From Acidobacteriota bacterium (lineage in GTDB: Bacteria > Acidobacteriota > Vicinamibacteria > Vicinamibacterales > UBA2999): 37,514 nt of DNA. This document shows positions 3,539 to 33,243 of the stretch, piece by piece; the stretch's first letter is position 1; each line of letters begins with the position of its first letter. Both the position numbers and the translations under genes were made by a program. The notes under the pieces are model-generated. The model was given only the letters and a program-made list of their open reading frames with translations. It was not told where the DNA came from and did no database searches. The stretch spans positions 1 to 37,514 of the forward strand of contig VFZN01000021.1 in assembly GCA_016871195.1 (NCBI GenBank), given 5' to 3'.

Positions 3539-5983
3539 TCAGAGATGCGCCTGCAGCGGCTCGTGCATCCGGCGCCCGTGCGTCAGGGACATCAGCACCA
3601 CGTCGGAGGTGACCGGTGCCCGACGGAACGCATCGACGCCAATGGCATCGGCAATGGCGTTGAGCACCGCGCCGTAGCCCGCGCCGACGGGCGGCTCGCC
3701 CACGCCCTTGGCACCCACTGGCGTCTCGGGATCAGCCACGCCCACCGCGACCGCGGGCATCGTGTGCGGCACATCCAGAATGGTCAGGGGACGGTTCTGG
3801 TGGAACCGCCGCGCGACCGACAGCCCGTAGTGCGGGTCGTAAAACAGCCGCTGATAGAGCGCGTGCGCAATGCCGAGGCAGACGCCTCCGTTCAGCTGCG
3901 CCGTGAGACTGCGCGGGTTGATCACACGCCCCACATCCCCCACGCTGAGGAAATCGACGAGGCGCACCTCGCCTGTCTCCACATCCACCTCGACTTCCGC
4001 AAACCCCGCCACAAACGACCACGTATCGCCGTTTCTCGGATAGGTGTCCTTGGCGACCCCCATCAGCCCCTGGCCCGCCAGCAGTGTGGCGGCCGTGCGG
4101 GTGACGGCATGGATGTCGTCGGGCAGCTGATGCCCGTCATAGTGTCCGCCCAGTTCCAGGGCACGGGCGGCGGCCTGTGCGTATGTCAGCGCACGCTCAG
4201 ACCGTCCCTTGCGGGATACGCGCTGGTCGCGCAGTTCGTAATCGTCGGGACTCCCCCCGAGGTCACGCGCCGCAATCTCGCACAGCTTCTGCCGCGCATC
4301 CATCGCCGCCGCATGATTCGCCCGCGTCATTGCATGGGTCGTCTGTGAGCCCACCGACATACAGGTCCAGGGCAGCCCCTTCGAGGTGTCGCCCCACACC
4401 ACAGAGACCTGGTCCCACGGCATGGCCAGCACGTCGGCGGCCACGCGCGCCAGATCGATCACGGAATGCGTGCCGAGGTTGCCGACGCCCGACTGCACAT
4501 AGAGCCGACCATCAGGCCTGATGGTCATGAGCCCGTCGTATCCCACCGACCCCGCCCCGTGCGGCCCGACCGCAACGCCGACGCCCCGTACCGTGCTGCC
4601 CTTCCGCTGCCCCGCACGCGCCACACGCGACGACCAGTCGAAGAGCTCGGCACCGCGGTCCAGCGACGCCCGCACATTGGCGCCCGTGACACGCCGGCGC
4701 TGCCCGTCGGCACCCACCGGACCGTATTCGGCGCGGCCCTCGGGCGCATTCATCCGGCGCAGGGCCAGTTGATCAATGCCGAGCGCGCGTGCCGCCTTGG
4801 TCATCACCGGCTCGATGATGCCGTTGGCCTGCATGGGGCCCGGCGATCGCTGCTGTGTGCGCGGCGGCGTGTTGGTCAGCACATTCACCGCACGCCAGCG
4901 CATCGCCGCGGGCTGATAGACGAGCGAGGCCGCGGTGCCCGCCGACCGATGGTCCCCCATGGGGCCGTACGGACCGCCGTCCTGCACCAGGAAGAGATCG
5001 AGCGCCAGCAACCGGCCATCGCGCGCAAATCCCGCGCGCGCCCGTCCCACCATGCTGGTACGCGCACGGCCGAAGTAGCTTTCCTCTTCGCGGCTCACGC
5101 GCATCATCACCGGCGCACCCGCCTTGCGTGACAGCAGCGCGGGAATCGCCATCGTCACCGACCCGGCCCCCTTGCTGCCGAAACCGCCGCCGGTGTACTC
5201 GTTGATGAGCACCACCTGCGCCGGTTCTACACCCACCCACCGTGCCACGGTGTCTACCGTGCGCACGACGCTCTGGGTTGAACAGTGGAGATAGAGCTTG
5301 CCGTGCTGCCAGAAGGCCATGGCCGATCGCGTCTCGAGCGGGTGATGCCCCGTGGACGGGACCACGAAGGTTTCGTCGAGCGTGAGGTGGGCCTGGGCAA
5401 AGCCGGCCTCGAGGTCGCCGTGCACCCATTCCTCGGTGGCCCGTCCCATCGGCATCTGCCCATCGGTCGCGGCCGCGAAATCCTCGGCGGTCCACTTCAG
5501 ACGCTCGACGGCAGGGCGAGCCGGGGCCTGTCCCGGCGCGGGAGGGGGCGGCACCCCCCAGACGTTGCCCTCGGTGCGGGCATCGGGCCCACCTGGCCGC
5601 AGGCTCTCGATGGGATCGATGGCGAACGGCAGGGGTTCCAGATCGATATCGATCAGTTCGATGGCTTCCGCCGCCGTCAGTTCGTCGACCGCCGCCACGG
5701 CCAGAATGGGCTCGCCGCCGTAGAGTGGCTCGTTGGTCAGCGCACGCTCGGCCCCGCCGAGATCGGGCAGGTCATCGGCGGTCAGGATGGCCCGCACACC
5801 CGGCAGCGCCAGCGCCCGTCGTGTATCGAGCCGGCGCACGCGCGCGTGCGGCATCGGACTCAGCAGCAGCTTGGCGAACAGCATGCCCTCGGCCCGGAAG
5901 TCTTCCGCGTACTTGGCGCGCCCGGTTACCTTGGCCAGGATGTCTGGCGTGATGTAGTCGGAACCGACGAGAGTGTCTGCCAT
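3539..5983 (-). CDS. Xanthine dehydrogenase family protein, molybdopterin-binding subunit
   Basis: This is the large catalytic (molybdenum cofactor) subunit of a xanthine dehydrogenase/aldehyde oxidase/CO dehydrogenase-type hydroxylase (COG1529). These enzymes oxidise purines, other N-heterocycles or aldehydes using water. The start at 5983 is set by an AGGAGG five bases upstream; the product is 814 residues. The N-terminal a/b hammerhead domain (about 1-110, with GRAKYAEDFR and MPHARVRRLD) is followed by cofactor-binding domains with GGGFGSKG near residue 261 and the GVGEPPVGAG loop near 760, whose Glu is the expected base. No FAD subunit or 2Fe-2S subunit gene lies next to it, which is unusual for three-subunit members. 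The substrate cannot be read from the sequence. It is divergent from the amidohydrolase gene. Confidence 0.9.
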   Translation of the reverse strand: MADTLVGSDYITPDILAKVTGRAKYAEDFRAEGMLFAKLLLSPMPHARVRRLDTRRALALPGVRAILTADDLPDLGGAERALTNEPLYGGEPILAVAAVDELTAAEAIELIDIDLEPLPFAIDPIESLRPGGPDARTEGNVWGVPPPPAPGQAPARPAVERLKWTAEDFAAATDGQMPMGRATEEWVHGDLEAGFAQAHLTLDETFVVPSTGHHPLETRSAMAFWQHGKLYLHCSTQSVVRTVDTVARWVGVEPAQVVLINEYTGGGFGSKGAGSVTMAIPALLSRKAGAPVMMRVSREEESYFGRARTSMVGRARAGFARDGRLLALDLFLVQDGGPYGPMGDHRSAGTAASLVYQPAAMRWRAVNVLTNTPPRTQQRSPGPMQANGIIEPVMTKAARALGIDQLALRRMNAPEGRAEYGPVGADGQRRRVTGANVRASLDRGAELFDWSSRVARAGQRKGSTVRGVGVAVGPHGAGSVGYDGLMTIRPDGRLYVQSGVGNLGTHSVIDLARVAADVLAMPWDQVSVVWGDTSKGLPWTCMSVGSQTTHAMTRANHAAAMDARQKLCEIAARDLGGSPDDYELRDQRVSRKGRSERALTYAQAAARALELGGHYDGHQLPDDIHAVTRTAATLLAGQGLMGVAKDTYPRNGDTWSFVAGFAEVEVDVETGEVRLVDFLSVGDVGRVINPRSLTAQLNGGVCLGIAHALYQRLFYDPHYGLSVARRFHQNRPLTILDVPHTMPAVAVGVADPETPVGAKGVGEPPVGAGYGAVLNAIADAIGVDAFRRAPVTSDVVLMSLTHGRRMHEPLQAHL

Positions 5984-6042
5984 GCCGCCTCCTGCGGGGC
6001 ACTCTACCAGAATCTGCCGTCGGCGCAGCCGCCGCGACCCGG

Positions 6043-6048
6043 TATGAT
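6043..6048 (+). promoter_or_regulatory. Candidate -10 element TATGAT of the amidohydrolase gene
   Basis: TATGAT matches the sigma-70 -10 consensus in five of six positions and lies 38 bases before the amidohydrolase ATG, inside the 103-base divergent gap shared with the molybdopterin subunit gene. No clear -35 hexamer was found at 16-18 bases, so this is tentative. Confidence 0.3.
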
Positions 6049-6086
6049 GAGCGCGGCTGACCGGACCCGCCGCTGCGGCAGGCCGC

Positions 6087-7439
6087 ATGCCCCGAGGATT
6101 CCGCATCGTGACATCGCTCCGTCTCACTGCCATCCTGGCTGCCTTCGCCGCCTCTGCGGCCGCACTGCTCGCGCAGGCACCGGCCCCGACGACCGCCCCT
6201 GCGGTCACGGTCGTGCGCGCCGATCGCCTGCTGCTCGGCACCCTCGACGCTCCCATCCGGGGCGCCGCCGTCGTCGTGCGCGGCGACACCATCGTCGCCG
6301 CGGGCCGAGCCACCGACATTGCCGTGCCCCCGGGGGCCCGCGTCATCGACCTCGGGAACCGGACGCTGATGCCGGGCCTGATGGACATGCACGACCACAT
6401 CACGGGCGAACCGAGCGACGGGGGCGACAGCGCCGTTCTCAAGGAGACCGCCGGGCACGCTGCGATCTACGGCGTGCTCAACGCGAAAAAGACACTCGAG
6501 GCCGGCTTCACCACGGTGAGAAACGTCGGGGCCCTCGGCTATGCCGACGTCGCCCTCCGCGATGCCATCAATAAGGGCCTCGTGCCCGGTCCGCGGATGT
6601 ACATCGCCACACGAGGCCTCGGCATCACCGGCGGCCATGCGGACATCAACGGCTGGAGCCCCGAGATTCACCTGCCCGGCGTCGCACAGATCGTGGACGG
6701 CGTCGACGAGGTGCGTCGCGCCGTGCGCGAACAGATCAAGGCCGGGGCCGACCACATCAAGGTGACCGCCAGCGGCGGCATCCTGTCGGTGGGCGATTCA
6801 CCGGACGCGCAGCAGTACAGCTTCGAGGAAATGAAGGCGATTGTGGACGAGGCTGCGAGGCTCGGCCGTAAGGTCGCCGCCCACGCACACTCGGGTCGCG
6901 CCATCGCCGAGGCCGCCCGTGCCGGCGTGGCGTCAATCGAGCATGGCAGCCTCATCGACGAGGCCGGCATCGCGGCGATGAAGGAACACGGCACCGTCAT
7001 GGTGCCCACCGTGTTTGCCCTCGATTACATCATTCGCGGCGGCGACGCGGGCATTCCGGAATACGCGCGGGAGAAGGCCCGGAACATCCAGAAGCTGCAG
7101 CGGGCCAATCTGAAGCGCGCCTTCGAGGCCGGCGTGAAGTTCGCCTACGGCACCGACGCCGGTGTCTTCCCGCACGGGCTCAATGCGGGCGACTTCCCCA
7201 TCCTGGTCCGTGAGCTTGGCATTCCGCCCCTCGAGGCCATCCGGCAGGCGACGTCGGCATCCGCCGAACTGATCGGCATTCAGGACAAGGTCGGCACCGT
7301 CTCGGCCGGCAAGTGGGCCGACCTCGTGGCCGTCGACGGCAATCCCCTCGACGACATTGAACGCATGCTGAACGTCACATTCGTCATGAAGGCCGGGGTC
7401 GTCTACAAGTCGCCCGCCGCCACACCTGCTGCACGGTAG
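6087..7439 (+). CDS. Exported metal-dependent amidohydrolase (imidazolonepropionase-like family)
   Basis: This is a hydrolase of C-N bonds in cyclic amides, dipeptides or similar substrates, with a binuclear metal centre. A signal peptide is clear (about residues 1-31: basic start, hydrophobic LTAILAAFAASAAALL, ending LAQA), so it acts outside the cytoplasm. The full ligand set of the superfamily is visible: His102 and His104 in MHDH, Lys225 in HIKVTASGG (expected carbamylated bridge), His266 in AAHAH, His286 in IEHGS and Asp357 in YGTDAG. At 450 residues the length fits. The nearest relatives I recognise by pattern are Xaa-Pro dipeptidase/carnosinase-like and imidazolonepropionase-related amidohydrolases; the exact substrate is unknown. 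It converges with the dehydrogenase gene. A GTG at 6108 is an alternative start. Confidence 0.88.
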   Translation: MPRGFRIVTSLRLTAILAAFAASAAALLAQAPAPTTAPAVTVVRADRLLLGTLDAPIRGAAVVVRGDTIVAAGRATDIAVPPGARVIDLGNRTLMPGLMDMHDHITGEPSDGGDSAVLKETAGHAAIYGVLNAKKTLEAGFTTVRNVGALGYADVALRDAINKGLVPGPRMYIATRGLGITGGHADINGWSPEIHLPGVAQIVDGVDEVRRAVREQIKAGADHIKVTASGGILSVGDSPDAQQYSFEEMKAIVDEAARLGRKVAAHAHSGRAIAEAARAGVASIEHGSLIDEAGIAAMKEHGTVMVPTVFALDYIIRGGDAGIPEYAREKARNIQKLQRANLKRAFEAGVKFAYGTDAGVFPHGLNAGDFPILVRELGIPPLEAIRQATSASAELIGIQDKVGTVSAGKWADLVAVDGNPLDDIERMLNVTFVMKAGVVYKSPAATPAAR

Positions 7440-7476: not shown

Positions 7477-8562
7477 TCAGAGCGTGGGCTCCCGCCAGGG
7501 GCCCACGCGGTCGAGTGTGGCGTGCACGCCGAGCTCACGTCCCAGAGCTTCGAGATCGGCCAGCACCTCGTCATCGAGCGGCACACCGACCTCGGACTTG
7601 AGGGCGACGCGGCGTGCCTCGAGTTCGCCGGGAATGAAAATCTCGGTGACGCCAGGACGCGGTGCCCGCGTCTTCACCATGCGGGCGAAGTCATCCATGC
7701 GCTGCCGGAACTCGTCAAGCGGCATGAACCATGAGATGTCGATGGCCATCAGCGTGTGGCTCACATCGAGGCGGCCCTGATCGGCGTACGGCATGAGTCC
7801 ATAGCCGCCACCACCGATGACTCCCGTCAGCACATCGGTCATGAAGGCCAGCCCCGATCCTTTGTAGGCCCCAATGCCCAGCAGGGCGCCCGTCATGGCG
7901 GCCTGCGGGTCATCCGTTTCCTCTCCGTCGGGGGTGAGCGCCCAGTCGCGCGGCATGGGCTGCCCTTCGCGTGCGCGCCACTGCATCATGCCCTTGCCGG
8001 CGGTGGTGAGAGCGATGTCGAGCACGGCCGGAAAGCCGAGACCGGTCGGCGCCGCCAGCCCCCACGGATTGGTGCCGACGGCCCCTTCGCGGGCACCCCA
8101 CGGCGCCATTTCAGGTCCGGCATTGGTGAACGCCACCCCGAGGCACCCGGCCTCGGCCGCCTGACAGGCGTGCACCGCGCTCGACCCGAAGTGTGTCGAG
8201 TGCCGCACGATCACCGTGCCCATGCCTGAGGTGCGTGCCTTGTCGATGGCCATGCGCATCGCCTTCGCCGCCGCGACCGTGCCGAGCCCGTTGTGGGCAT
8301 CGAGCAGCGCGAGTGCCGGACTCTCTTTCACGACCTCGAGCGGCGCCGACGGATCGGTCAGCCCCTGCGCGATGCGGTGCTGATAGCGGCGTAACCGCTT
8401 GACCCCCTGCCCGTGACCCGGATGAAAACGCAATTCGGAGAAGACCAGTGCCCCGCCGAAGATAGCTGCATCCTCGGCAGACAGGCCCAGGGCCCGCAGC
8501 GTCGCCACCGCGAAATGTTCAAGGCTGGTGCGCGTCACCGCCGTCATTGGAATCATCGCCAT
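7477..8562 (-). CDS. Malate/L-lactate dehydrogenase family oxidoreductase (Ldh_2, ureidoglycolate-dehydrogenase-like)
   Basis: This is an NAD(P)-dependent 2-hydroxyacid dehydrogenase of the Ldh_2 family (COG2055), which includes malate, L-lactate, sulfolactate and ureidoglycolate (AllD) dehydrogenases. The product has 361 residues, the usual length. Visible family features are the N-terminal helical segment ending in RFHPGHGQGVKRL, the VRHSTHFGSSAVHACQAAE stretch near residues 110-130, the GTNPWGLAAPT segment, and GAYKGSGLAFMTDVLTG near 230. The first His region of AllD-type enzymes is usually followed by S-H-G; here it reads HPGHGQG. The gene is divergent from the operon that carries AllA- and PuuE-like genes, so a ureide or hydroxyacid substrate is plausible but not shown. 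Confidence 0.85.
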   Translation of the reverse strand: MAMIPMTAVTRTSLEHFAVATLRALGLSAEDAAIFGGALVFSELRFHPGHGQGVKRLRRYQHRIAQGLTDPSAPLEVVKESPALALLDAHNGLGTVAAAKAMRMAIDKARTSGMGTVIVRHSTHFGSSAVHACQAAEAGCLGVAFTNAGPEMAPWGAREGAVGTNPWGLAAPTGLGFPAVLDIALTTAGKGMMQWRAREGQPMPRDWALTPDGEETDDPQAAMTGALLGIGAYKGSGLAFMTDVLTGVIGGGGYGLMPYADQGRLDVSHTLMAIDISWFMPLDEFRQRMDDFARMVKTRAPRPGVTEIFIPGELEARRVALKSEVGVPLDDEVLADLEALGRELGVHATLDRVGPWREPTL

Positions 8563-8669
8563 CCATCCCTCTGTGCCGAGGCTCGGACACGGCCGCCGGT
8601 GCGGCCGCTGGCGCAGCGGCGACCGTCAATATACAGTAGGGAGGTTTTTCACATCTCCGGTAACCCTGC
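8563..8669 (+). promoter_or_regulatory. Divergent promoter region of the catabolic operon
   Basis: The region separates the dehydrogenase (minus) from the aminotransferase operon (plus). A -10-like TATACA/TACAGT lies at 8630-8637. A GGGAGG follows at 8639-8644 but is 25 bases from the first usable ATG at 8670, with in-frame stop TAA at 8661, so it cannot serve that start at normal spacing. GGAG and CTCC around 8641-8659 could pair as a small hairpin in the leader. The function is inferred. Confidence 0.3.
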
Positions 8670-9881
8670 ATGGCCCACTCCCTCCGACCTGCACGACGCG
8701 CGACGGTGCGCGATGCCCGCATCAACGCCCGGCTGCTCGAGATTGCCGACGGCCTCACGGATGTCATCCGCATGGGCCGGGGCGACCCCGACTTCGATAC
8801 GCCCGCGCACATCATCGCGGCTGGACAGGCGGCGCTGGCGAACGGCGCCACGCACTATACGCACACGCAGGGCATGCTGTCGCTGCGTCAGGCGATCGTG
8901 CGTGACATCGAGGCGCACGGCGGGGCGTCGTACACACCAGACCAGATTGTCGTTACCCCGGGTGCGCAGCAGGCACTTTTCACCACGGCCCTCGGGCTGC
9001 TGAATCCCGGTGAGCAGATGGTCGCCGCGTGTCCCGGCTACCATCCGTACCATCAGGCGGCCGAGCTCGCCGAGGCACAGGTCATCGACGTGCGCACGAC
9101 GCTCGCCACCAACTTCAGCGCCACGGCCGACATGATCGAGGCGCAGCTGACGCCCACCACTCGCATCATTGTCCTCGTGAACCCCTCGAATCCGACGGGA
9201 ACGGTGACCCCGCCCGACGAAGTCGAGCGCATTGCCGATGTCGCCCGCCGGCACGACCTGCTGGTGATTTCCGACGAAATCTACTCGCGGCTCGTGGTCG
9301 ACGGCGTGCGCGTGCAGCCTGTCGCGTCGCTGCCGGAGATGCAGGACCGCACCATCACGATTTCGGGCTTCTCGAAAACGTACGCCATGACGGGCTGGCG
9401 CATCGGCTATCTGGCCGCACCAGCCGCCCTCGTCCCTGCCCTGGCCGCCATCAACAACGGCCTCGCCATCAGCACGTCAGCGGTGGCACAGCATGCGGCA
9501 CTGGCCGCCCTGCAGGGACCGCAGGACTGCGTCGATGAGATGCGGAAGACCTACGAGGAACGTCGCCGCGCGCTCTGCGCCGGCCTCGACACCCTGGGCA
9601 TTCCCTACGCCACACCGCAGGGCGCTTTCTTCGTCTATGCCCGCGTCGCCGCACTGGGTCTCGGAGCCACCGACTTCTGCGAACGCCTCCTTCGCGAGGG
9701 ACGCGTGCTCGCCTTTCCAGGTGGCGTGTACGGCGACTACACGGACGACTTCATCCGTCTGTCACTGACGGTGCCGACCGCTCGCATCGAAGAGGCCTGC
9801 CGTCGCATGGCCCGGGTGGCGCAGGCACTGGCCAACGCCTCCGCCTCATCCATTCCAGCCGACACGGAGCCGTCCCGATGA
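8670..9881 (+). CDS. PLP-dependent aminotransferase, class I/II (aspartate aminotransferase-like)
   Basis: This cytoplasmic transaminase moves an amino group between an amino acid and a keto acid. The product has 403 residues. The fold type I signature is present: GAQQALFTTAL near 95, NPSNPTGTV near 173, DEIYSRL near 206, the PLP lysine Lys236 in SGFSKTYAMTGWRIGY, and the C-terminal RLSLTV segment with the substrate carboxylate-binding Arg. It is the first gene of a tight plus-strand operon and its stop overlaps the VOC gene start (ATGA). It is not the class V type used as ureidoglycine-glyoxylate aminotransferase. The amino donor is unknown. Confidence 0.9.
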   Translation: MAHSLRPARRATVRDARINARLLEIADGLTDVIRMGRGDPDFDTPAHIIAAGQAALANGATHYTHTQGMLSLRQAIVRDIEAHGGASYTPDQIVVTPGAQQALFTTALGLLNPGEQMVAACPGYHPYHQAAELAEAQVIDVRTTLATNFSATADMIEAQLTPTTRIIVLVNPSNPTGTVTPPDEVERIADVARRHDLLVISDEIYSRLVVDGVRVQPVASLPEMQDRTITISGFSKTYAMTGWRIGYLAAPAALVPALAAINNGLAISTSAVAQHAALAALQGPQDCVDEMRKTYEERRRALCAGLDTLGIPYATPQGAFFVYARVAALGLGATDFCERLLREGRVLAFPGGVYGDYTDDFIRLSLTVPTARIEEACRRMARVAQALANASASSIPADTEPSR

Positions 9882-10357
9882 TCTCCGACAACCCGAACGT
9901 CCGCAGCATCAAGCACATGGCCTTCGCCGTCCGCGACTCGGCGCAGGCGCTCGAGGCGTACACGCGTTTCCTGCATGTGCCGGCGTCGACTGAGCTGAAG
10001 ATCTATCCGAAGTCGCAGAACCGGGTGGCCCTGTTCACGCTGGGCGGCATCGAGTTCCAGTTGTGCGAGTCGCTGCAGCCCGACGGCCGCTTTGCCTCGT
10101 GGATTGCCGCCCGCGGCCACGAAGGTTTGCATCACATCTGTTACGAAGTCGATGACATCGAGGCCGCGCTGGCCCACGCCGTGTCGCAGGGCGCCTCGCT
10201 GCGCATCTGTCAGGCGTGCCAGAAGTATGGCGCGCATCCGCATCCGGAAGGCTGGGTGGCCTTCCTCGACAACGATGCCGGCGGCATCGAAATCGAATTC
10301 ATGCAGGTCTACACGCCCGCGCAACTCGACGAGTACCGGGCCTATCAGGGGATTTGA
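9878..10357 (+). CDS. VOC family protein (methylmalonyl-CoA epimerase/glyoxalase-like fold)
   Basis: This 159-residue single-polypeptide protein has two paired beta-alpha-beta-beta-beta modules, as in vicinal-oxygen-chelate metalloenzymes. Likely metal ligands are visible in family positions: His near residue 8 (IKHMAF), Gln near 65 (IEFQLCE), His in GLHHICYEVDD near 85, and Glu in GIEIEFMQ near 140. That pattern is closest to methylmalonyl-CoA epimerase, but the context gives no acyl-CoA pathway, so it may be an epimerase, isomerase or lyase acting on an operon intermediate. It overlaps the aminotransferase by four bases and precedes the next gene by three. Confidence 0.82.
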   Translation: MISDNPNVRSIKHMAFAVRDSAQALEAYTRFLHVPASTELKIYPKSQNRVALFTLGGIEFQLCESLQPDGRFASWIAARGHEGLHHICYEVDDIEAALAHAVSQGASLRICQACQKYGAHPHPEGWVAFLDNDAGGIEIEFMQVYTPAQLDEYRAYQGI

Positions 10358-10360
10358 CGC

Positions 10361-11353
10361 ATGTCTGCAGCGAAGACAGTCACCGTCGGCACGGCCACCG
10401 CCGCCCCGGGCTCGGTAGTGCGCGGCATCATTCCGGTCACGACACTCGCGGGCGATACGCCGCTCGGCATTCCCGTCGTGGTCATCAACGGTGCCCAAGA
10501 GGGGCCGTGCTTCTGGGTCGACGGGGCCATCCACGGCGATGAACCCGAAGGACCGCTGGCCTGCCAGATCGCGATGCGCGAGGTCGACCCGGCGCAGCTC
10601 GCGGGCACGCTGGTGCTGTGCCCGGTGCTCAACGTGGCGGCCTTCGAAGCCGCCCAGCGTGGCAATCCGCTCGACACGTTCAGCTACGACATGAACCGCA
10701 TCTATCCGGGGCGGGCCAATGGCTATCTGACCGAGCGCGTGGCCGCGGCCCACGCCGACGCCATGGGGACCGTCGCCGATTTCGAAATTTCGATTCATTC
10801 GGGCGGCGCGCACTCGTTCCTCGACAAGGCCATCTTCGTCGACGAGCGCCCGGCGTCGGTCGAACTCGCCACGGCCATGGGCCCCGGCTGGGGCTGCATC
10901 ATGTCGTCGATCAGCCCCAAGGGCAGTCCGATGGCCTACCTCAAGGACATCGGCAAAGTCGGCATCACGGTGGAACTGGGCGGACGATCGGCCACCTCGC
11001 CTGCGGCCTTTGCCGCTGTCGGTCGGGCGCTCGCCGATGCCATCCTCAACATCCTGCGGCACTACCGCATGTATCCCGGCGAGGCCGCCTATCCGTCGCC
11101 GCGCTACCGCGGACAGCAGGAGGCCCTGCTCGCGCCGGCATCGGGGCTGTTCCTGCCCCGCGAAGACATCCAGTTCCTGACGCCGATGCCGAAAGGCACG
11201 CCGATTGCCCGCATCACCAGCATCTTCGGTGACACCCTCGCCGACCTGTCCGCACCGGCTGACGGCATGATTTTCGGTCTGCGCGCCCTGCCGAACGTCA
11301 CCACAGGCGAGTGGTGCTGCTTCTTCTGCAAGATTGAAGGCACGCGCGAATGA
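10361..11353 (+). CDS. Succinylglutamate desuccinylase/aspartoacylase (AstE/AspA) family zinc hydrolase
   Basis: This is a zinc-dependent carboxypeptidase-fold amidohydrolase that removes N-acyl groups from amino acids or acts on related amides. The product has 330 residues. Zinc ligands and catalytic residues are readable: His58 and Glu61 in GAIHGDEPEG, His146 in SIHSGGAH, and Glu205 in TVELGG as the expected general base. NRIYPG near 110 corresponds to the substrate-binding Asn-Arg segment of the family. The family includes AstE, aspartoacylase and the ectoine-pathway deacetylase DoeB; the sequence alone does not choose between them. Its stop overlaps the PuuE-type gene start by four bases. 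Confidence 0.87.
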   Translation: MSAAKTVTVGTATAAPGSVVRGIIPVTTLAGDTPLGIPVVVINGAQEGPCFWVDGAIHGDEPEGPLACQIAMREVDPAQLAGTLVLCPVLNVAAFEAAQRGNPLDTFSYDMNRIYPGRANGYLTERVAAAHADAMGTVADFEISIHSGGAHSFLDKAIFVDERPASVELATAMGPGWGCIMSSISPKGSPMAYLKDIGKVGITVELGGRSATSPAAFAAVGRALADAILNILRHYRMYPGEAAYPSPRYRGQQEALLAPASGLFLPREDIQFLTPMPKGTPIARITSIFGDTLADLSAPADGMIFGLRALPNVTTGEWCCFFCKIEGTRE

Positions 11354-12258
11354 TGCACGACGGGTCACGTGACCTGATCGGATACGGGACGCAGCCCCCG
11401 TCCATCACGTGGCCCGGTGGGGCTCGTCTCGCCGTCAACCTCGTCATCAACTATGAGGAAGGCGCTGAGTACGCCTTCGAACACGGCGACGGACGCTCGG
11501 ACCTGGGCCTGCTCGATATCGCGCAGGCCCGCCTGCCGCAGAACGTGCGCGACCTGGCCGCTGAGAGCCTCTTTGAATACGGCAGCCGCGTCGGCATCTG
11601 GCGGCTCATCCGCCTGTGCGAGGCATACCGCGTGCCCGCGACGCTCTTCGCCGCAGCGCTCGCCCTCGAGCGAAACCCGGCCGTCGCTGAGGCCGTGGCA
11701 CGCAACGGCTGGGACGTCGTCGCGCACGGCTGGCGCTGGATCGCGCACACCGATCTCGACGAAGCCACCGAGCGCGAGCATATTGCCCGCGCCTACGAGA
11801 GCATCCAGCGCCTGACCGGGCACGCCCCCGAGGGCTGGTATTGCCGCTATGCACCCTCGGCGAACACGCGTCGACTGGTGGTGGAACACGGCGGCTTCAG
11901 CTACGACAGCGATGCCTACAACGACGAGCTGCCCTACTGGGTGCGCGTCGGGGAACGGGCGCATCTGGTGGTGCCCTATTCGCTGACGACCAACGATGCC
12001 AAGCTCGTGGGCGGTCCGCTGATCACCGGCCGCGCCTTCGGTGACCTGCTCATCGACACGGCCGACGAACTGCTGGGCGAGCACCGCACACGGATGATGT
12101 CGGTCGGCCTGCATGCCCGCATCGCCGGGCATCCGGGGCGTCTCGTCGGGCTGCGTCGCTTTCTCGATCACATCCAGGGGCATCCCGACATCTGGCTCTG
12201 CCGGCGTCGCGACCTCGCCCTGTACTGGCGCACGCACGTGCCGCCACCCGCATCGTAA
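11350..12258 (+). CDS. PuuE-type polysaccharide deacetylase-fold protein (allantoinase PuuE family)
   Basis: The product has 302 residues and is a member of the NodB/carbohydrate esterase 4 fold, in the branch that contains the cofactor-independent allantoinase PuuE. The N-terminal pattern is diagnostic: LIGYGTQPPSITWPGGARLA, then VINYEEGAEYAFEHGD. Further family segments are FEYGSRVGIWRL near 75, DVVAHGWRWI near 125, the WYCRYAPSANTRRL stretch near 160 and GLHARIAGHPGR near 255. In known members the substrate is allantoin (ring opening to allantoate) or related amide and N-acetyl compounds. It lies between the AstE-like and AllA-like genes with overlaps of four and one bases, so the products probably share a pathway. 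The exact substrate is inferred. Confidence 0.87.
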   Translation: MMHDGSRDLIGYGTQPPSITWPGGARLAVNLVINYEEGAEYAFEHGDGRSDLGLLDIAQARLPQNVRDLAAESLFEYGSRVGIWRLIRLCEAYRVPATLFAAALALERNPAVAEAVARNGWDVVAHGWRWIAHTDLDEATEREHIARAYESIQRLTGHAPEGWYCRYAPSANTRRLVVEHGGFSYDSDAYNDELPYWVRVGERAHLVVPYSLTTNDAKLVGGPLITGRAFGDLLIDTADELLGEHRTRMMSVGLHARIAGHPGRLVGLRRFLDHIQGHPDIWLCRRRDLALYWRTHVPPPAS

Positions 12259-12725
12259 TGCGCGCCGTCACGGCCCGTCCCATTGAGGCGGAGGCGTTCG
12301 CACCTTTCGGCACGCTGATTCATCCGCCGGCACACGCAGGCCAGCGGGAAATGTTCAGTGCATGGGCGTCACCTGTCACGGGACTTCGACCGCAGCTGCA
12401 CGTCAACCGTGTGGCACCGATCCGGCTGCCGCTGACCGTCTCTCAGGTGGAACGTCATCCACACGCCGCGCAGATCTTCCTCCCACTCGACGCCGGCACA
12501 TATCTCGTCGTCGTGATGCCGTCACTCGACAGTGGTGCACCCGATGTCGCCCAAGCCGGCGCCTGGCTGGTACCCCCCACGCTGGGCGTCGCCTATCGCC
12601 CGGGCGTGTGGCACACCAGCATCATGGCCCTCGATCGGGAATCGTGTTTCTCGGTGCTGATGTGGCGCGGCGCCACCAATGACGATGAGATGACGGCGGT
12701 GACGCCGATGACGGTGATCGTGTAA
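12258..12725 (+). CDS. Ureidoglycolate lyase (AllA) family protein
   Basis: This 155-residue cupin-like protein matches the ureidoglycolate lyase family, which splits ureidoglycolate into glyoxylate and urea. Family features include the start AVTARPIEAEAFAPFGTLI, a VERHPHAAQIFLPLD stretch (residues about 66-80) where AllA proteins carry the conserved H-x-x-S/A-Q, and GVAYRPGVWHTSIMAL near 115-130 with the conserved W-H. It overlaps the preceding gene by one base (TAATG). The context (PuuE-like upstream, Ldh_2 divergent) supports a ureide role, yet no urease or allantoicase is nearby. Confidence 0.85.
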   Translation: MRAVTARPIEAEAFAPFGTLIHPPAHAGQREMFSAWASPVTGLRPQLHVNRVAPIRLPLTVSQVERHPHAAQIFLPLDAGTYLVVVMPSLDSGAPDVAQAGAWLVPPTLGVAYRPGVWHTSIMALDRESCFSVLMWRGATNDDEMTAVTPMTVIV

Positions 12726-12759
12726 GCCGCGTAGCATGACGACGACGAAGGAGACATGC

Positions 12760-13839
12760 ATGAAGGTTGGAATCATCGGTGCCGGATTTGCCCGTGCGGC
12801 CTACCTGCCAGCCCTGCGTCACGTCCCCGGCGCAACCGTCGTCGCACTGGCCTCGGCCCGGCTCGACCGGGCGCGCGCGGTGGCTGACGAATTCGGCGTC
12901 CCGCATGCCTACGACGACTGGCAGGCGATGCTGCGGGCGCACACCTTCGATCTCGTGTGCATCGCGACGCCGACCGTCCTGCATGCTCCGCAGACTCTCG
13001 CCGCTCTGGCATCTGGCGCGCACGTGCTCTGCGAGAAGCCGGCGGCGATGGATGCCACAGAGGCGCGGACCATGCTTGAGGCCGCTGAGGCCGCCGGGCG
13101 CCTGCATATCATCGACCATGAACTGCGGTTCAATCCCAACCGGATGCGCATCGCCTCACTTATCGCCGACGGCACCCTGGGCGACATCAGGCACATAGTC
13201 ATCACCAACATCGGTGCCGCGTGGAATGCCCCCGGCAGTCGTGCGCGCAACGACTGGTGGAGCCTGGCCTCAGAGGGCGGCGGCCGCCTCGGCGCCAACG
13301 GCAGTCACCAAGTGGACTTGCTCCGGTGGTGGCTGGGCGAGGTGTCGTGGGTCACTGGTGCGGCACCGGTCATGGTGCGGCAGCGGCACGACCCGGCGAG
13401 CGGCGAGGCATGGACGGCGACGGCCGACGATGTGGCGTACTTCACGGCGGAGATGGCATCAGGGGCCGTCGCACAGGTGTTTATCTCGGCGGTGGCTGCG
13501 CGGACGATGTCGAACGTCACGCAGGTGTTCGGCTCGCGCGGCACGCTGCTGCTCGACAATCAGGATGAGCGGTTGTGGCTCGCGCGCGGCAGCAGTGCGT
13601 TCGAGGATATCTCGGTGGCCGATCCGAATGCGGGCCTGCCCGGCGTCGGTGCCGGCATCTGGAATGTCTCGGTGGTGGGCCTGCTGCAGGCGATGGGCGC
13701 GGCGATTCAGCAGGGGCATCCGCTGACGCAGGCGGCGACGTTTGCCGACGGCCTCGCCACGCAGTGCGTGCTCGATGCGGTACGGCTGTCGGGCACCGAG
13801 CGCCGTTGGGTGCGGCCCGGAGACATCGCGGCACGCTGA
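12760..13839 (+). CDS. Gfo/Idh/MocA family NAD(P)-dependent oxidoreductase
   Basis: The product is 359 residues when started at 12760, where AAGGAG lies at good spacing; an ATG at 12736 in the same frame lacks this. The N-terminal Rossmann fold begins with KVGIIGAGFARAAYLPAL. The EKP motif (GAHVLCEKPAA) places the likely catalytic Lys at residue 93. The C-terminal alpha/beta domain carries the GGGRLGANGSHQVDLLRWWLG segment (about 175-195), in the place of the usual G-x-x-x-D-x-G-x-H motif. Members oxidise or reduce sugars, inositols and other hydroxy compounds, and a few have other activities. It is the last gene of the operon. Confidence 0.88.
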   Translation: MKVGIIGAGFARAAYLPALRHVPGATVVALASARLDRARAVADEFGVPHAYDDWQAMLRAHTFDLVCIATPTVLHAPQTLAALASGAHVLCEKPAAMDATEARTMLEAAEAAGRLHIIDHELRFNPNRMRIASLIADGTLGDIRHIVITNIGAAWNAPGSRARNDWWSLASEGGGRLGANGSHQVDLLRWWLGEVSWVTGAAPVMVRQRHDPASGEAWTATADDVAYFTAEMASGAVAQVFISAVAARTMSNVTQVFGSRGTLLLDNQDERLWLARGSSAFEDISVADPNAGLPGVGAGIWNVSVVGLLQAMGAAIQQGHPLTQAATFADGLATQCVLDAVRLSGTERRWVRPGDIAAR

Positions 13840-13937: not shown

Positions 13938-14741
13938 TCAGGGCGCGCCGCGTTCCACGGTCTCGGCCAGGGCCATCAGTGCGTCGTCTGTCAGGCCGGT
14001 CTCTGACGCCGCGAGCCCCTGACAGACACGCCAGGCGTCGAAGCGGCAGCCTGTCGGTGAGCCCTGTGCCTGCGCGAGGCGCACGAACGCCGGCCCCAGC
14101 GCTTCGGGATCACGCAGGGCAGCGCGCCGGGCATCGGGCCACGCGTCGTAGTCGGCGGCCGTCACTCCGGTCGGCTTGATCCGTGCCCCCGGTGTAACGG
14201 TATTGAACGACACGCGAGTCCCGCGATATTCGAGAGCGGCGGCACGTGTCAGGCCTTCGACGCCGAACTTCGCGGCACAGTACGCGGTCTCGTCCGCGAA
14301 TCCATGTACCCCTGCTCTCGACGAGACATTGATGACCGACCCTCCCTGCACCGAGAGCCTCGCCGCGACCGCACGCATCAGCAGGAACGTGGCCGACAGA
14401 TTCACCGCAAGCACCTGGTCCCACACCACCTCGTCGGTCATGGCCATTGGCGAGATGGGCAGCACAGCGGCGTTGTTGACGAGGATGTCGGCGGGGTCCG
14501 ATCCTGCGGCCATCCACTGCCCGAGTGCATGCACCGACAGACGGTCTGCCAGGTCGACGCACCGCGCCTGCACCACGAGTCCCTCTGACGACAGCCGACT
14601 GGTGGCAGCCTCGAGTTCGTCGGCCACTTCGGCGACGAGCGTCACGCGTGCTCCGGCCCGGGCCAGTGCCGCAGCCGCTCCGAGGCCGAGGCCTCTCGAT
14701 GCCCCGGTCACCAGGGCATGTCGTCCCTGCAGCGAGGACAT
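13938..14741 (-). CDS. Short-chain dehydrogenase/reductase (SDR)
   Basis: This classical SDR has 267 residues. The cofactor motif TGASRGLGLG (about 13-22), the NNAAVLPIS segment, the catalytic Ser in NVSSRAGVHG, and Tyr154/Lys158 in AYCAAKFG are all present. The C-terminal third (SPTGCRFDAWRVCQGL) shows it ends with the usual substrate-covering part. It follows the DUF819-type membrane protein by four bases on the same strand and is most likely co-transcribed. The substrate is unknown. Confidence 0.9.
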   Translation of the reverse strand: MSSLQGRHALVTGASRGLGLGAAAALARAGARVTLVAEVADELEAATSRLSSEGLVVQARCVDLADRLSVHALGQWMAAGSDPADILVNNAAVLPISPMAMTDEVVWDQVLAVNLSATFLLMRAVAARLSVQGGSVINVSSRAGVHGFADETAYCAAKFGVEGLTRAAALEYRGTRVSFNTVTPGARIKPTGVTAADYDAWPDARRAALRDPEALGPAFVRLAQAQGSPTGCRFDAWRVCQGLAASETGLTDDALMALAETVERGAP

Positions 14742-16216: not shown

Positions 16217-17674
16217 ATGGCCGACGAACTCTGGTTCCAGTCGATTACCGAACTCTCCCGACAGCTCGCCGCCCGTACCCTGTCGTCGGTGGCCCTGACC
16301 CGTGCCTATCTCGACCGGATCGATCGGCTCGACACGCCGCCGTTTCCGCTGCCGGCCGGTCCGCAGGATCGCCCGGGTGATCGGCTGGCGTCGGTCACTA
16401 CCGTCGTGCGCGAGCAGGCCCTCGCTGATGCTGCCGAGGCCGACCGGGCCCTCGCCTCCGGTCCGCCGAAGTCGCCGCTCCACGGCATTCCCTACGGCGT
16501 CAAGGATCTGCTCGATACCCGCGGGGTGCGCACGACGTGGGGCTCGCAGGTCTTCGCCTCGCGCGTCCCCGACCGCGACGCCGCTGTCGTCGAGCGGCTG
16601 CGCGCGACAGGCGCCGTCCTCATTGGCAAGATGACCACGGCTGAGTTTGCAGGCGGCAGCATCAGCACGGCCCTCAATCCCTGGAAGCTCGACCGCTCGA
16701 CGCAAGGGTCCTCGAGCGGCACCGTCGTCGGCGTGGTAGCGGGCCTCATCGGATTCGGTATCGGCACTGAAACGGGTGGGTCGATCGTGTTCCCCGCCTC
16801 TGCCGTGGGAGCCACCGGTCTGCGGCCGACGTTTGGCCGGGTGAGCCGCTTCGGCTGCATGTCACTGGCCTGGAGCCTCGACAAGATCGGGCCCGTCGGC
16901 CGTTCGGCCGAGGACTGCGGCATTGTTCTTCAGGCGATTGCCGGGCGGGATGTGCGCGACCCGGGCAGCGCGGATCGGCCGTTCCAGTTCAACGCCACAC
17001 CGGGTTCGCTCAAGGGCGTGCGCATTGGCGTGCATCGGCCCGAGATTGATGCCGAGGAAGCCGCGCCGAACCGTCGGGCCTTCAATGACGCGCTTGCCGT
17101 GTTCCGCCGACTCGGGGCGACCGTCGAGGATTTCATCCTGCCGATGCGGCCCTACTTCGAGGTGTTCATGCACCTCACGAGTGTGGAAAGCGCCGCGTCG
17201 TTCCGTCGCCTGTTCACGGATGGATCAGTGAACGGCCTGTTTCCCTACAACTGGTCCCGCCGGGCCGACTGGATGGCGGCCAGCATGGCCCCGGCCTACG
17301 ACTATCTGCAGGCCCAGCGCATCCGACAGATGATTGTGATGGACGGCGATGCGCTGCTGCAGCGCTTCGACCTGGTGGTGTGCCCGACGTTCCCCGGGGG
17401 CGCCCCCGATCGCTATGCCCCGACGTCGCCCCCCGTGCCGCCGCCGCCCGTGTCGCCGGCACCGCCGCAGTTGCCGCGCCTCAACTGGGTGGGCAACCTG
17501 TCGGGGTTGCCCGGCATGTCCTTCCCCTGCGGCTTCGACCCCGATGGCATGCCGCTCGCCCTGCACCTGATGGGGCGGCCGTGGGCCGAGCAGGCGGTGA
17601 TTGATGCGGTGCGTCACTTCCAGCGCGACACCAACTGGCACACGCGGCGTCCGCCGTACCCGTGGCGGGCCTGA
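16217..17674 (+). CDS. Amidase (amidase signature family)
   Basis: This 485-residue hydrolase of amides carries the Ser-cisSer-Lys triad of the amidase signature family. Lys96 lies in GIPYGVKDLLD, the cis-Ser in STQGSSSGT (about 165-167), and the nucleophile Ser189 in GTETGGSIVFPAS. The C-terminal part has a Pro-rich stretch (PPVPPPPVSPAPPQ, about 410-425) before the conserved NLSGLPGMSFPCGF segment. The family covers acylamides, amino acid amides, allophanate and Glu-tRNA(Gln); this one lies closest in style to stand-alone catabolic amidases. It sits three bases after, and in frame with, the Tat-signal gene, and it closes the catabolic block. Confidence 0.92.
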   Translation: MADELWFQSITELSRQLAARTLSSVALTRAYLDRIDRLDTPPFPLPAGPQDRPGDRLASVTTVVREQALADAAEADRALASGPPKSPLHGIPYGVKDLLDTRGVRTTWGSQVFASRVPDRDAAVVERLRATGAVLIGKMTTAEFAGGSISTALNPWKLDRSTQGSSSGTVVGVVAGLIGFGIGTETGGSIVFPASAVGATGLRPTFGRVSRFGCMSLAWSLDKIGPVGRSAEDCGIVLQAIAGRDVRDPGSADRPFQFNATPGSLKGVRIGVHRPEIDAEEAAPNRRAFNDALAVFRRLGATVEDFILPMRPYFEVFMHLTSVESAASFRRLFTDGSVNGLFPYNWSRRADWMAASMAPAYDYLQAQRIRQMIVMDGDALLQRFDLVVCPTFPGGAPDRYAPTSPPVPPPPVSPAPPQLPRLNWVGNLSGLPGMSFPCGFDPDGMPLALHLMGRPWAEQAVIDAVRHFQRDTNWHTRRPPYPWRA

Positions 17675-17714
17675 GGATTGCGGCATGGGGCCGGGCCGCC
17701 GCCGCACGCACGAC

Positions 17715-17738
17715 CGGAGATTGCCCGGGAAATCTCCG
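17715..17738. terminator. Inverted repeat between the amidase and secretin genes
   Basis: Eight-base perfect arms, CGGAGATT (17715-17722) and AATCTCCG (17731-17738), flank an eight-base loop. It starts 40 bases after the amidase stop and could end that transcript, but no T-run follows. It also lies about 30 bases before the -10-like TATACT at 17769 of the secretin gene, so an operator role for the pilus secretin is an equal possibility. Confidence 0.4.
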
Positions 17739-17768
17739 ATTGTCCTGAGCGTTGTCACAGGTCTTGTG

Positions 17769-17774
17769 TATACT
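17769..17774 (+). promoter_or_regulatory. Candidate -10 element TATACT of the secretin gene
   Basis: TATACT matches five of six -10 consensus positions. A TTGTCA lies at 17752-17757, but the spacer is only 11 bases, too short for a normal sigma-70 pair. If the -10 is right, the transcript would begin close to the GTG at 17784 and be nearly leaderless. Confidence 0.3.
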
Positions 17775-17783
17775 CCCGCCCGC

Positions 17784-19856: not shown

Positions 19857-19900
19857 CCCTGTCCACGTCTTCGCCCGTGATGAAGCCCCTGGGGGAGTCT

Positions 19901-21559: not shown

Positions 21560-21568
21560 CCCCGGGAA

Positions 21569-21586
21569 CCCCGGGGCCGCCCGGGG
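21569..21586. terminator. GC-rich hairpin between convergent pilus units
   Basis: CCCCGGG (21569-21575), loop GCCG, CCCGGGG (21580-21586) form a seven-base G/C-only stem in the 49-base gap between the PKD lipoprotein and tadD-like stops. It is placed to stop transcription from both sides, although no T-run is present on either strand. Confidence 0.5.
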
Positions 21587-21608
21587 GCTGGCTGCATCGG
21601 ACGCTGGC

Positions 21609-22283
21609 CTAGCGCGAGGCCTTGAGGGCCGCCAGCCGATCACGGGCGGGCGCCCAGTCGGGCCGCCCCTCGAGAGCCTTCGCGTAGAGCGCCATGGCCT
21701 CGTCTCGACGCTGCTGGGCTTCTCGAATCAACCCGAGGTGATATGCGACGCGCCATGCGGGTGCCCCGAGCCGTTCCGCCGTGCGCAACGATGCCTCCGC
21801 TACGTCGAACTTCCGCTCGAAATACGCGACAGAACCGGCCACTTCATGCAGGTCGGCATGTGCCGGCGACAGTCTGAGCTGATCGCTGACCAGCTGTGCG
21901 GCATACGGCAGGTTGCCTTCGTCGAGCGCGATACGGGCGCGCAGCACGGCTGCACTGGCGTGGCTGCCCGGCTGTGCGAGCACCAGATCGAGCAGCTGCT
22001 GCGCCACCAGAGGCCGCCCGGCCTCGAACGCCACCACCGCATTGGCCTCCATCGTTGGCACGTGCGCGGGGCAGGCCAGCCCCAGCAGTTCGATGCCCTG
22101 TCGGACCTGTTCGCAGTCGCCGTCGCAGCCTGTGGCAGGCAGCGCACGATAGCGGTCGAGCAGACGCGCAAGCTGGGCATCGGGCGTGACGCACTCGGCC
22201 GACACCATCGGGGCCTGCTTGGCGCAGGCACCAGCCAGCAGGGTCATCATGACGGAAGCAAGGGGAAGGGCACGTCGTCTCAT
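21609..22283 (-). CDS. tadD: TPR-containing lipoprotein, TadD-like
   Basis: This 224-residue protein starts at the ATG at 22283, which overlaps the TadC stop (ATGA). A lipoprotein signal (LASVMMTLLAGAC, Cys20) is followed by a short Cys-containing segment and tetratricopeptide-like repeats from about residue 75 to the end (for example AYFERKFDVAEASLRTAERLG and RDEAMALYAKALEGRPDWAPA). TadD is the TPR pilotin-like lipoprotein of Tad systems and probably helps place the secretin. The position at the end of the tad operon fits. The four Cys in residues 31-72 (ECVTPD, TGCDGDCEQ, GLACP) are an unusual detail. Confidence 0.8.
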   Translation of the reverse strand: MRRRALPLASVMMTLLAGACAKQAPMVSAECVTPDAQLARLLDRYRALPATGCDGDCEQVRQGIELLGLACPAHVPTMEANAVVAFEAGRPLVAQQLLDLVLAQPGSHASAAVLRARIALDEGNLPYAAQLVSDQLRLSPAHADLHEVAGSVAYFERKFDVAEASLRTAERLGAPAWRVAYHLGLIREAQQRRDEAMALYAKALEGRPDWAPARDRLAALKASR

Positions 22284-23188: not shown

Positions 23189-23191
23189 GGC

Positions 23192-26711: not shown

Positions 26712-26721
26712 GCGGGGGATC

Positions 26722-28140: not shown

Positions 28141-28149
28141 GTGGGCGTC

Positions 28150-33139: not shown

Positions 33140-33243
33140 GCGCACCAGTGTAGCGCGAACACGCGCGCCACATCCTCGGGTCGGGTATGGTCGTCTCTTC
33201 GAACGACAGGCCCGACGCTCACGGCGGCACACCGCCGCGCCGG

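Follow-up and report, generated by a model that had tools for sequence, protein, structure and literature searches.

A PuuE–AllA–AstE gene cluster common to unrelated water and soil bacteria, probably for the breakdown of a ring-shaped nitrogen compound other than urate or allantoin

The purine ureide pathway, represented here by a Pseudomonas record with PuuE, UraD, Alc and AllA (L151), shares the PuuE and AllA families with the gene cluster that we describe. The pairing of a hydantoinase with an N-carbamoylase (HydA, HyuC) resembles the cluster in inferred logic, with ring opening followed by removal of a carbamoyl group. The ectoine enzymes DoeA and DoeB are also similar in part: DoeB is the best solved match (6twl) of the profile of the AstE-like protein, and M24 proteins are encoded in related loci. 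The ergothioneine enzymes ErtD and ErtE, known here as NCBIfam model names, are matched by an AllB-like protein (L126) and an M20 protein (L125) from related loci. Finally, plasmid AllA–PuuE modules of Bosea, Thioclava, Neorhizobium and others have the cluster-type PuuE loop, fall on the same side of the trees and, like the cluster, show no UraH, UraD or Alc in the fetched stretches. Unlike the cluster, they have no AstE homologue in the stretch and most adjoin ABC transporter genes.

The window, a stretch of 37,514 nucleotides from an Acidobacteriota genome of 98.24% completeness, carries the following genes (families from 7477 onwards by Pfam).

6087–7439, plus strand: amidohydrolase (Amidohydro_1), probably secreted, with a signal-like N-terminus as judged by eye
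7477–8562, minus strand: Ldh_2 family dehydrogenase, divergent from the operon
8670–9881, plus strand: class I aminotransferase (Aminotran_1_2) with the motifs SKTYAMTGWR and FIRL, to whose Lys and Arg functional roles are ascribed
9878–10357, plus strand: VOC protein (Glyoxalase_4/VOC), best solved matches methylmalonyl-CoA epimerases
10361–11353, plus strand: AstE/DoeB-like hydrolase (AstE_AspA_cat) with the motifs GAIHGDE, DMNR and HSGG, to which a zinc role is ascribed
11350–12258, plus strand: PuuE-like hydrolase (Polysacc_deac_1) with the loop GWYCRYAPS
12258–12725, plus strand: AllA-like protein (Ureidogly_lyase) with A115 and M138
12760–13839, plus strand: Gfo/Idh oxidoreductase (GFO_IDH_MocA), start placed by alignment with a homologue (G032), alternative start 12736
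13938–14741, minus strand: SDR oxidoreductase
14746 to about 16062, minus strand: DUF819 membrane protein, start uncertain, a possible transporter
16217–17674, plus strand: amidase-signature hydrolase

Open reading frames and Pfam matches bear out the compact arrangement of six plus-strand genes beside a divergent Ldh_2 gene that had been proposed in the preliminary description, together with its family names. From the aminotransferase to the Gfo/Idh gene the spacing is −4, +3, −4, −1 and +10 or +34 bases, so that neighbours overlap or lie at most 34 bases apart, and the top Pfam match of each product exceeds the gathering score. Spacing and conserved order suggest that the six genes form a single operon-like unit.

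Related loci were fetched with the AstE-like protein as marker, in a scan from which the window's own record and very near records may be absent, and the best 80 of 113 confirmed loci were surveyed; a gene was counted as present when tblastn gave E 1e-10 over 40% of the query. The order aminotransferase, VOC, AstE, PuuE, AllA on one strand recurs in 32 of these 80 loci, in Pseudomonadota, Gemmatimonadota and Acidobacteriota, and the set is therefore not found only once. Individually, VOC is present in 61 loci, any aminotransferase in 57, Ldh_2 in 49 and AllA in 38; the loose membership of the core, from which Ldh_2, AllA and the aminotransferase are often missing, is partly due to contig ends. 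Among the 31 loci that hold all five genes (L068 and L130 left out), the divergences of the five core proteins correlate with Spearman coefficients of 0.57–0.83, some of which shared ancestry alone accounts for. Twelve AstE rows were omitted from the AstE sequence comparison.

The conserved unit exceeds six genes and differs by lineage. Of the six-gene unit envisaged earlier, the order of a five-gene core has held, while its boundaries have widened to take in the SDR, DUF819, amidase and amidohydrolase genes. Homologues of the SDR occur in 43 of the 80 loci and of the amidohydrolase in 22, counts that take in distant members of large families; those of DUF819 occur in nine and of the amidase in five. 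Within their AstE stretches, two distant genomes (G099, G111) encode copies of the amidohydrolase about 63% identical to that of the window. The window itself combines a type-I core with type-II flanking genes. Family names in the related loci come from NCBIfam and Pfam matches of one representative per family, and the gene caller used there fails at low GC. The labels Dpp-type, M14, D-2-hydroxyacid dehydrogenase and type-II amidohydrolase were assigned on visual inspection or from resemblance to proteins of the window.

A cyclic-amide ring opener (PuuE, an AllB/ErtD-like protein or a D-hydantoinase) was found in 74 of the 80 fetched stretches and not in the other six. It lies within 5 kb of AstE in 72 of 80 loci and, where full 1.5 kb flanks are available, inside that distance in 59 of 69. 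None of 24 distant AstE homologues has such a neighbour; these controls (L041–L064) were the weaker AstE matches, two of them (L052 and L057) with shorter flanks. In this comparison of 69 loci with 24 controls, presence was scored over 30% of the query instead of 40%. PuuE and D-hydantoinase never occur together (0 of 80 loci). PuuE and an AllB/ErtD-like protein coexist in four loci (L111, L112, L124 and L125), so these two need not catalyse the same step. In the 12 loci with the carbamoylase-like M20 gene typified by L125, PuuE is present in all and AllA in none. The hydantoinase and carbamoylase family cut-offs are passed by the one type-II hydantoinase tested (L134; 533 bits, cut-off 393) and by the one marine M20 tested (L125; 236 bits, cut-off 204). 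The window, by comparison, uses PuuE- and AllA-like proteins, and its genome has no HyuC/AllC-type carbamoylase (TIGR01879) over the cut-off, the best hit being 35.2 against 204 bits.

From gene content, order and conservation, together with the clades, motifs and missing purine matches given below, we infer, with a confidence just short of even, that this operon forms the centre of a catabolic route, distinct from purine breakdown, whose substrate would be a cyclic amide or ureide of the hydantoin type; substrate and reactions alike are read from gene families and their neighbours. The amidohydrolase and amidase, or the peptidases of relatives, would release or trim the compound. Its ring would be opened by the PuuE-like enzyme to give an N-carbamoyl or N-acyl acid, a step which D-hydantoinase or AllB/ErtD-like enzymes may perform in relatives. 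The AllA-like protein and the AstE-like hydrolase would then strip the nitrogen-borne group, with an M20 carbamoylase-like enzyme in place of the AllA-like protein in marine alphaproteobacteria. The aminotransferase and Ldh_2 might convert the amino, 2-oxo and 2-hydroxy acids so formed into one another, with the amino or keto acid passing into general metabolism, and the VOC, Gfo/Idh and SDR proteins could complete the carbon skeleton; an isomerase role for the VOC protein is a guess. In a simple version, a 5-hydroxy-5-R-hydantoin would be opened to an α-hydroxy-ureido acid, which AllA would split into R-CO-COOH and urea.

That last step bears on the earlier suggestion that the pathway releases usable nitrogen. 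The best urease hit in the genome scores 21.7 of 23 bits, below the cut-off, and without urease a urea-forming AllA step would bring no gain of nitrogen. With no carbamoylase over the cut-off either, the suggestion is doubtful if AllA yields urea.

A more general proposal is that bacteria of several phyla in lakes, oceans and soils share a dedicated pathway for hydantoin- or ureido-linked peptides in dissolved organic nitrogen, in which PuuE and AllA, taken over from the purine pathway, act on a new substrate and ring openers of unrelated families replace each other. Cyanobacterial and sponge peptides with ureido or hydantoin groups (PMC10381486) are examples of such compounds. We regard the proposal in this full form as improbable.

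Peptidases and a dipeptide-type transporter in many related loci do make a peptide-like substrate possible. M32 is found in 36 of the 80 loci, DUF4438 in 31, M24 in 28, M20F in 22 and an M14-like gene in 14, with a DppA-like gene in 37; M32, M24 and M20 were checked by Pfam and DUF4438 in separate analyses, while M14 and Dpp were judged by eye from sequence. These families would suit a route that scavenges peptides of cyclic or modified form, for example diketopiperazines: the PuuE- or hydantoinase-like enzyme would open a cyclic dipeptide, with peptidases and the aminotransferase finishing the work. The type-I locus peptidases also fit a peptide substrate. Such a route has no need, however, for AllA, VOC, Gfo/Idh or Ldh_2, and the listed peptidase families and DppA are unmatched in the 12 D-hydantoinase loci and in the window. 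We consider it unlikely, though the strongest of the alternatives.

Somewhat less probable is a divergent allantoin pathway, in which the PuuE-like protein would open allantoin, the AstE-like protein would replace allantoicase or allantoate amidohydrolase, and the AllA-like protein would split ureidoglycolate. The PuuE, AllA and Ldh_2/AllD families are common to the ureide pathway, and the PuuE-like protein is the sole Polysacc_deac_1 match in its genome. The operon proteins nevertheless reach the curated cut-off of none of the NCBIfam purine models: the PuuE-like protein scores 337.7 against 424.6 bits with TIGR03212 (allantoinase PuuE), and the AllA-like protein at best 88.2 against 160 bits with the ureidoglycolate lyase models, having passed Pfam PF04115 with 95.8 bits (gathering score 23). 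In quick trees, with SH-aLRT support only, neither protein groups with the purine-context sequences included. A branch of support 100 and length 0.64 parts cluster-type from purine-context PuuE (eight near-identical marine rows omitted), and in the AllA tree the purine clade has support 98 and the cluster clade 85. Seven genomes hold a separate purine-context PuuE besides the cluster PuuE.

With identical proteins and L030 (the same gene as L034) omitted, the loop Y[CS]RY is present in 53 of 53 cluster and 10 of 10 AllA-paired PuuE-like proteins (63 of 63), against [TL]GR, one residue shorter, in all 13 purine-context PuuE. AllA proteins share the core E68, H70, Q75, F77 and P79 (58 of 58 rows), and W121 and H122 are absent from just one row, a gapped one; N115 together with D138 occurs in 9 of 9 purine-context AllA and in 0 of 39 cluster rows. 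In one further record (L153) a CRY-like loop (CCRY) adjoins a gene annotated PuuD; loop and context are thus imperfectly linked.

Uricase, HIU hydrolase, OHCU decarboxylase and allantoicase gave no match in the window genome, in a search that covered these four families. The earlier judgement that the gene set is not a purine pathway is supported on both counts, the placement of PuuE and AllA and the purine genes sought elsewhere in the genome. An allantoin route would also leave the additional aminotransferase, VOC, AstE and Gfo genes of the operon unexplained.

A role in making or modifying a small metabolite, to which the top NCBIfam match of the aminotransferase might point (GntC of guanitoxin biosynthesis, 299 bits, below the cut-off of 415), is very improbable, since type-I loci hold mostly hydrolases with transporter-like and GntR-type genes and no assembly-line genes are among the families identified, some genes being without a family.

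Several specific substrates were considered and dropped. Creatinine or creatine (M24 with a ring opener) would leave most genes unexplained. For ergothioneine or hydantoin propionate, models fell below cut-off (AllB-like protein 332 against 650 bits, M20 protein 218 against 520) and no related paper was found in the open-access PMC literature. Ectoine degradation likewise fell below cut-off: the AstE-like protein scores 93.1 against 402.7 bits with the DoeB model TIGR02994, and for the single M24 protein examined the top match is prolidase PepQ, also below cut-off. Mycosporines, arginine glycation products and t6A nucleosides were substrate ideas only.

The preferred reading, a non-purine pathway for a hydantoin-type compound, would mean that a ureide module has been reused for a new compound; the cluster, common to unrelated water and soil bacteria, probably breaks down a ring-shaped nitrogen compound other than urate or allantoin. 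We found no description of the gene set in the open-access PMC literature. Public plasmid records give the names 'allantoinase PuuE' and 'ureidoglycolate lyase' to relatives that have the cluster-type PuuE loop and AllA, and surveys of allantoin use may therefore count genes of another pathway; the short loop signature could separate cluster from purine PuuE. The cluster is present in records of Pseudooceanicola antarcticus CGMCC 1.12662, Microvirga arvi BT689 (AllA not seen) and Meiothermus hypogaeus DSM 23238 (AllA and PuuE not seen), and its presence in named strains opens the substrate to direct search.

Two accessory proteins of relatives may be mentioned. For DUF4438, no paper was found in the open-access PMC literature, and its solved relative TM1086 carries no listed function. 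A related-locus protein (L126, 14229–15653) matches Glycosyl hydrolase-like 10 just below cut-off (25.2 against 27.9 bits) and no solved structure by sequence; a sugar-bound substrate, considered on its account, was among the ideas set aside. The predicted model of the protein is weak (pLDDT 61.2, pTM 0.68). Among the 50 Foldseek matches listed for that model, most are of glycosidase type, with query TM below 0.5.

The aminotransferase-VOC-AstE-PuuE-AllA-Gfo/Idh operon, with its divergent Ldh_2 gene, is a real and conserved cluster that lies outside the purine groups tested. All seven genes named in the preliminary description were recovered from open reading frames and Pfam where it had located them, and the best match of each exceeds its Pfam cut-off:

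7477-8562, divergent from the operon, Ldh_2 (Pfam)
8670-9881, + strand, aminotransferase (Pfam)
9878-10357, + strand, VOC protein (Pfam)
10361-11353, + strand, AstE-like protein (Pfam)
11350-12258, + strand, PuuE-like protein (Pfam)
12258-12725, + strand, AllA-like protein (Pfam)
12736 or 12760 to 13839, + strand, Gfo/Idh protein (Pfam)

Successive intergenic gaps from the aminotransferase to the Gfo/Idh gene are -4, 3, -4, -1 and 10 or 34 bases. Against NCBIfam models the PuuE-like protein reached 337.7 of 424.6 bits (PuuE), the AllA-like protein at most 88.2 of 160 bits and the AstE-like protein 93.1 of 402.7 bits (DoeB); as sequence scores, these indicate that the family assignments are right and support the named function for none. 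The aminotransferase and the AstE-like protein carry the motifs of their families, the residues of which we presume to play their usual roles.

The gene set recurs in three relatives (G032, G031 and G337). Genome contigs scanned with an AstE alignment (A1) yielded 113 relatives, and the analysis went on with the best 80. Among these best 80 of 113 loci, tblastn placed PuuE in 52, AllA in 38, VOC in 61, Ldh_2 in 49, any aminotransferase in 57, an AllB-like protein in 14 and a D-hydantoinase in 12. A ring opener of whatever kind (PuuE, AllB/ErtD-like or D-hydantoinase) is present in 74 of the 80, within 5 kb of AstE in 72. Five of the six operon genes keep the order aminotransferase-VOC-AstE-PuuE-AllA, on one strand, in 32 of the same 80 loci; counting only loci with PuuE and 2 kb of sequence to either side, the figure is 32 of 47. 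The control set comprised 24 far AstE homologues, 27-32% identical, with flanks of about 1.5 kb: VOC, PuuE, hydantoinase, aminotransferase and Ldh_2 were found near none, and a weak Gfo match beside one. Within 1.5 kb, 59 of the 69 cluster loci with full flanks (among the best 80 of 113) have a ring opener and 64 have some core gene. Across 31 loci, pairwise divergence in any one of the five proteins tracks that in the others (Spearman 0.57 to 0.83), as expected for genes that travel together, although common descent of the hosts alone yields some correlation anyway.

By record title the 32 ordered loci belong to Pseudomonadota, Gemmatimonadota and Acidobacteriota, with two doubted Actinomycetota (L068 and L102). 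L102 and L161 come from a record titled Enemella evansiae, in which both the cluster and a purine PuuE-UraD gene nest among Rhodobacteraceae in trees; the record may be mislabelled, and Actinomycetota were therefore left out of the phyla counted. L068, titled Acidimicrobiia, matches at a place identical to that of contig C18 of G032, a genome assigned to the window's family, and the two seem to be one contig.

Sorted by neighbours, the PuuE proteins comprise 53 from AstE loci, 13 beside UraH, UraD or Alc (purine context), ten paired with AllA without these genes nearby, and five others. All 53 AstE-locus and all ten AllA-paired proteins have a Y[CS]RY loop; the 13 purine-context proteins all have [TL]GR, one residue shorter. 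Two of the five others carry the purine loop (L170, L172), one YCRY (L169), one a similar CCRY (L153) and one neither (L174). The CCRY protein (L153:8974-9909) adjoins a gene annotated as urate hydroxylase PuuD, so the split between loop and context is not perfectly clean. In a quick tree of 73 proteins the cluster and paired proteins, with three others, stand behind a branch of length 0.64 (support 100); the cluster proteins thus fall outside the purine-context group, and by themselves do not form a single clade.

For AllA (39 cluster, ten paired and nine purine rows) the tree likewise sets the cluster clade (support 85) apart from the purine clade (98), with long branches and an unsure deep order. 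Glu68, His70, Gln75, Phe77 and Pro79 are kept in 58 of 58 rows, whereas Asn115 and Asp138 occur in all nine purine rows and are absent from all 39 of the cluster group; Asn115 also persists in one paired row. In L034 and the plasmid loci L148, L149, L150, L164, L165, L166, L168, L175 and L176, AllA and PuuE are paired with no UraH, UraD or Alc; most of these pairs adjoin ABC transporter genes, and they are a second, separate non-purine context of these families.

The window's genome (3.08 Mb, 98.24% complete) gave no match to uricase, HIU hydrolase, OHCU decarboxylase or allantoicase, a single urease match below cut-off, and no carbamoylase above cut-off. G031 and G337, which have the operon genes, also lack the four purine genes; G032 has both, on different contigs. 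Among 15 genomes tested, HIU hydrolase and OHCU decarboxylase occur in ten and allantoicase in two, on another contig than the cluster or more than 270 kb away. Both kinds of PuuE, purine-context and cluster, reside together in seven genomes.

Type I clusters, from Rhodobacteraceae, Gemmatimonadota and Acidobacteriota, in many cases add to the operon a second aminotransferase, a prolidase-like amidohydrolase, M24, M32, M20 and M14-like peptidases, two DUF4438 proteins, DapA-like, GntR, epimerase and second Gfo/Idh genes, and dipeptide-type ABC genes. Type II comprises the 12 D-hydantoinase loci among the best 80 of 113, 11 of them titled Gemmatimonadota or Longimicrobiales, with amidohydrolase, Ldh_2 and aminotransferase (10/12 each), SDR, DUF819 and D-2-hydroxyacid dehydrogenase (8/12 each) and amidase (4/12); PuuE, AllA, M32, M24, DUF4438 and DppA are found in none of the 12. 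The one hydantoinase tested (L134) scored 533.2 bits (cut-off 393.25). The window is of mixed type, with the core of type I and the flanks of type II. Thirteen marine alphaproteobacterial loci (L111-L125 minus L113 and L118) have VOC, AstE and PuuE, 12 of them with a HyuC/AllC-type M20 enzyme (L125, 235.9 bits, cut-off 204) and none of the 13 with AllA. Meiothermus L108 and L109 and Chloroflexota L113 and L118 pair an AllB/ErtD-like protein with an ArgE/DapE-like M20 enzyme. Five loci titled Chloroflexota or Neomarinimicrobiota (L127, L129, L132, L137, L138) all have AstE, four with DUF4438 and an AllB-like protein. Eleven of the best 80 of 113 loci share a conserved protein some 470 residues long with weak resemblance to glycosyl hydrolases (L126:14229-15653 and relatives), with a second aminotransferase in all 11 and a prolidase-like amidohydrolase in seven.

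Since PuuE and D-hydantoinase never share a locus among the best 80 of 113, the data suggest that they carry out one chemical step, the opening of a cyclic amide. PuuE and an AllB-like protein do occur together in four marine loci, so at least these two may catalyse separate steps. The natural substrate of PuuE is reported to be a small cyclic imide, and a relative is reported to bind a metal, which PuuE does not (PMC3084791); this fits ring opening as the putative reaction of the PuuE-like protein. The simplest chemistry that we infer would open a ring to an N-carbamoyl or N-acyl acid, from which AllA, AstE or an M20 enzyme would take off the nitrogen-borne group, leaving an amino or 2-oxo acid to be handled by the aminotransferase and Ldh_2. 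Were the ring to bear a 5-hydroxyl, PuuE and AllA alone could yield urea together with a 2-oxo acid, and PuuE-AllA pairs without allantoicase would then be accounted for. Given the peptidases of type I loci, the ring may be part of a peptide-like compound; anabaenopeptins bearing hydantoin are on record in the available part of one source (PMC10381486), and the present data do not connect them with the cluster.

The open-access literature searched held nothing relevant on these enzyme families in combination and no paper on DUF4438. SAR11 purine and allantoin genes have been mapped, PuuE, allantoicase and an NCS1 allantoin permease among them, and the available part of that map does not describe the present cluster (PMC11698098). 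None of the open-access papers searched describes the cluster, which is built from known enzyme families.

Elsewhere in the window, 3539-6157 encodes the molybdopterin-binding large subunit of a xanthine/aldehyde dehydrogenase, which was not recognized among recurrent neighbours in the best 80 of 113 loci. The region adjoining the cluster (17601-30152) holds a secretin, a PKD-domain protein and Tad/Flp pilus-type genes (T2SSE, T2SSF, TadE, RcpC and AAA), and an X-Pro dipeptidyl-peptidase (S15) gene lies at 31259-34366, about 14 kb from the cluster.
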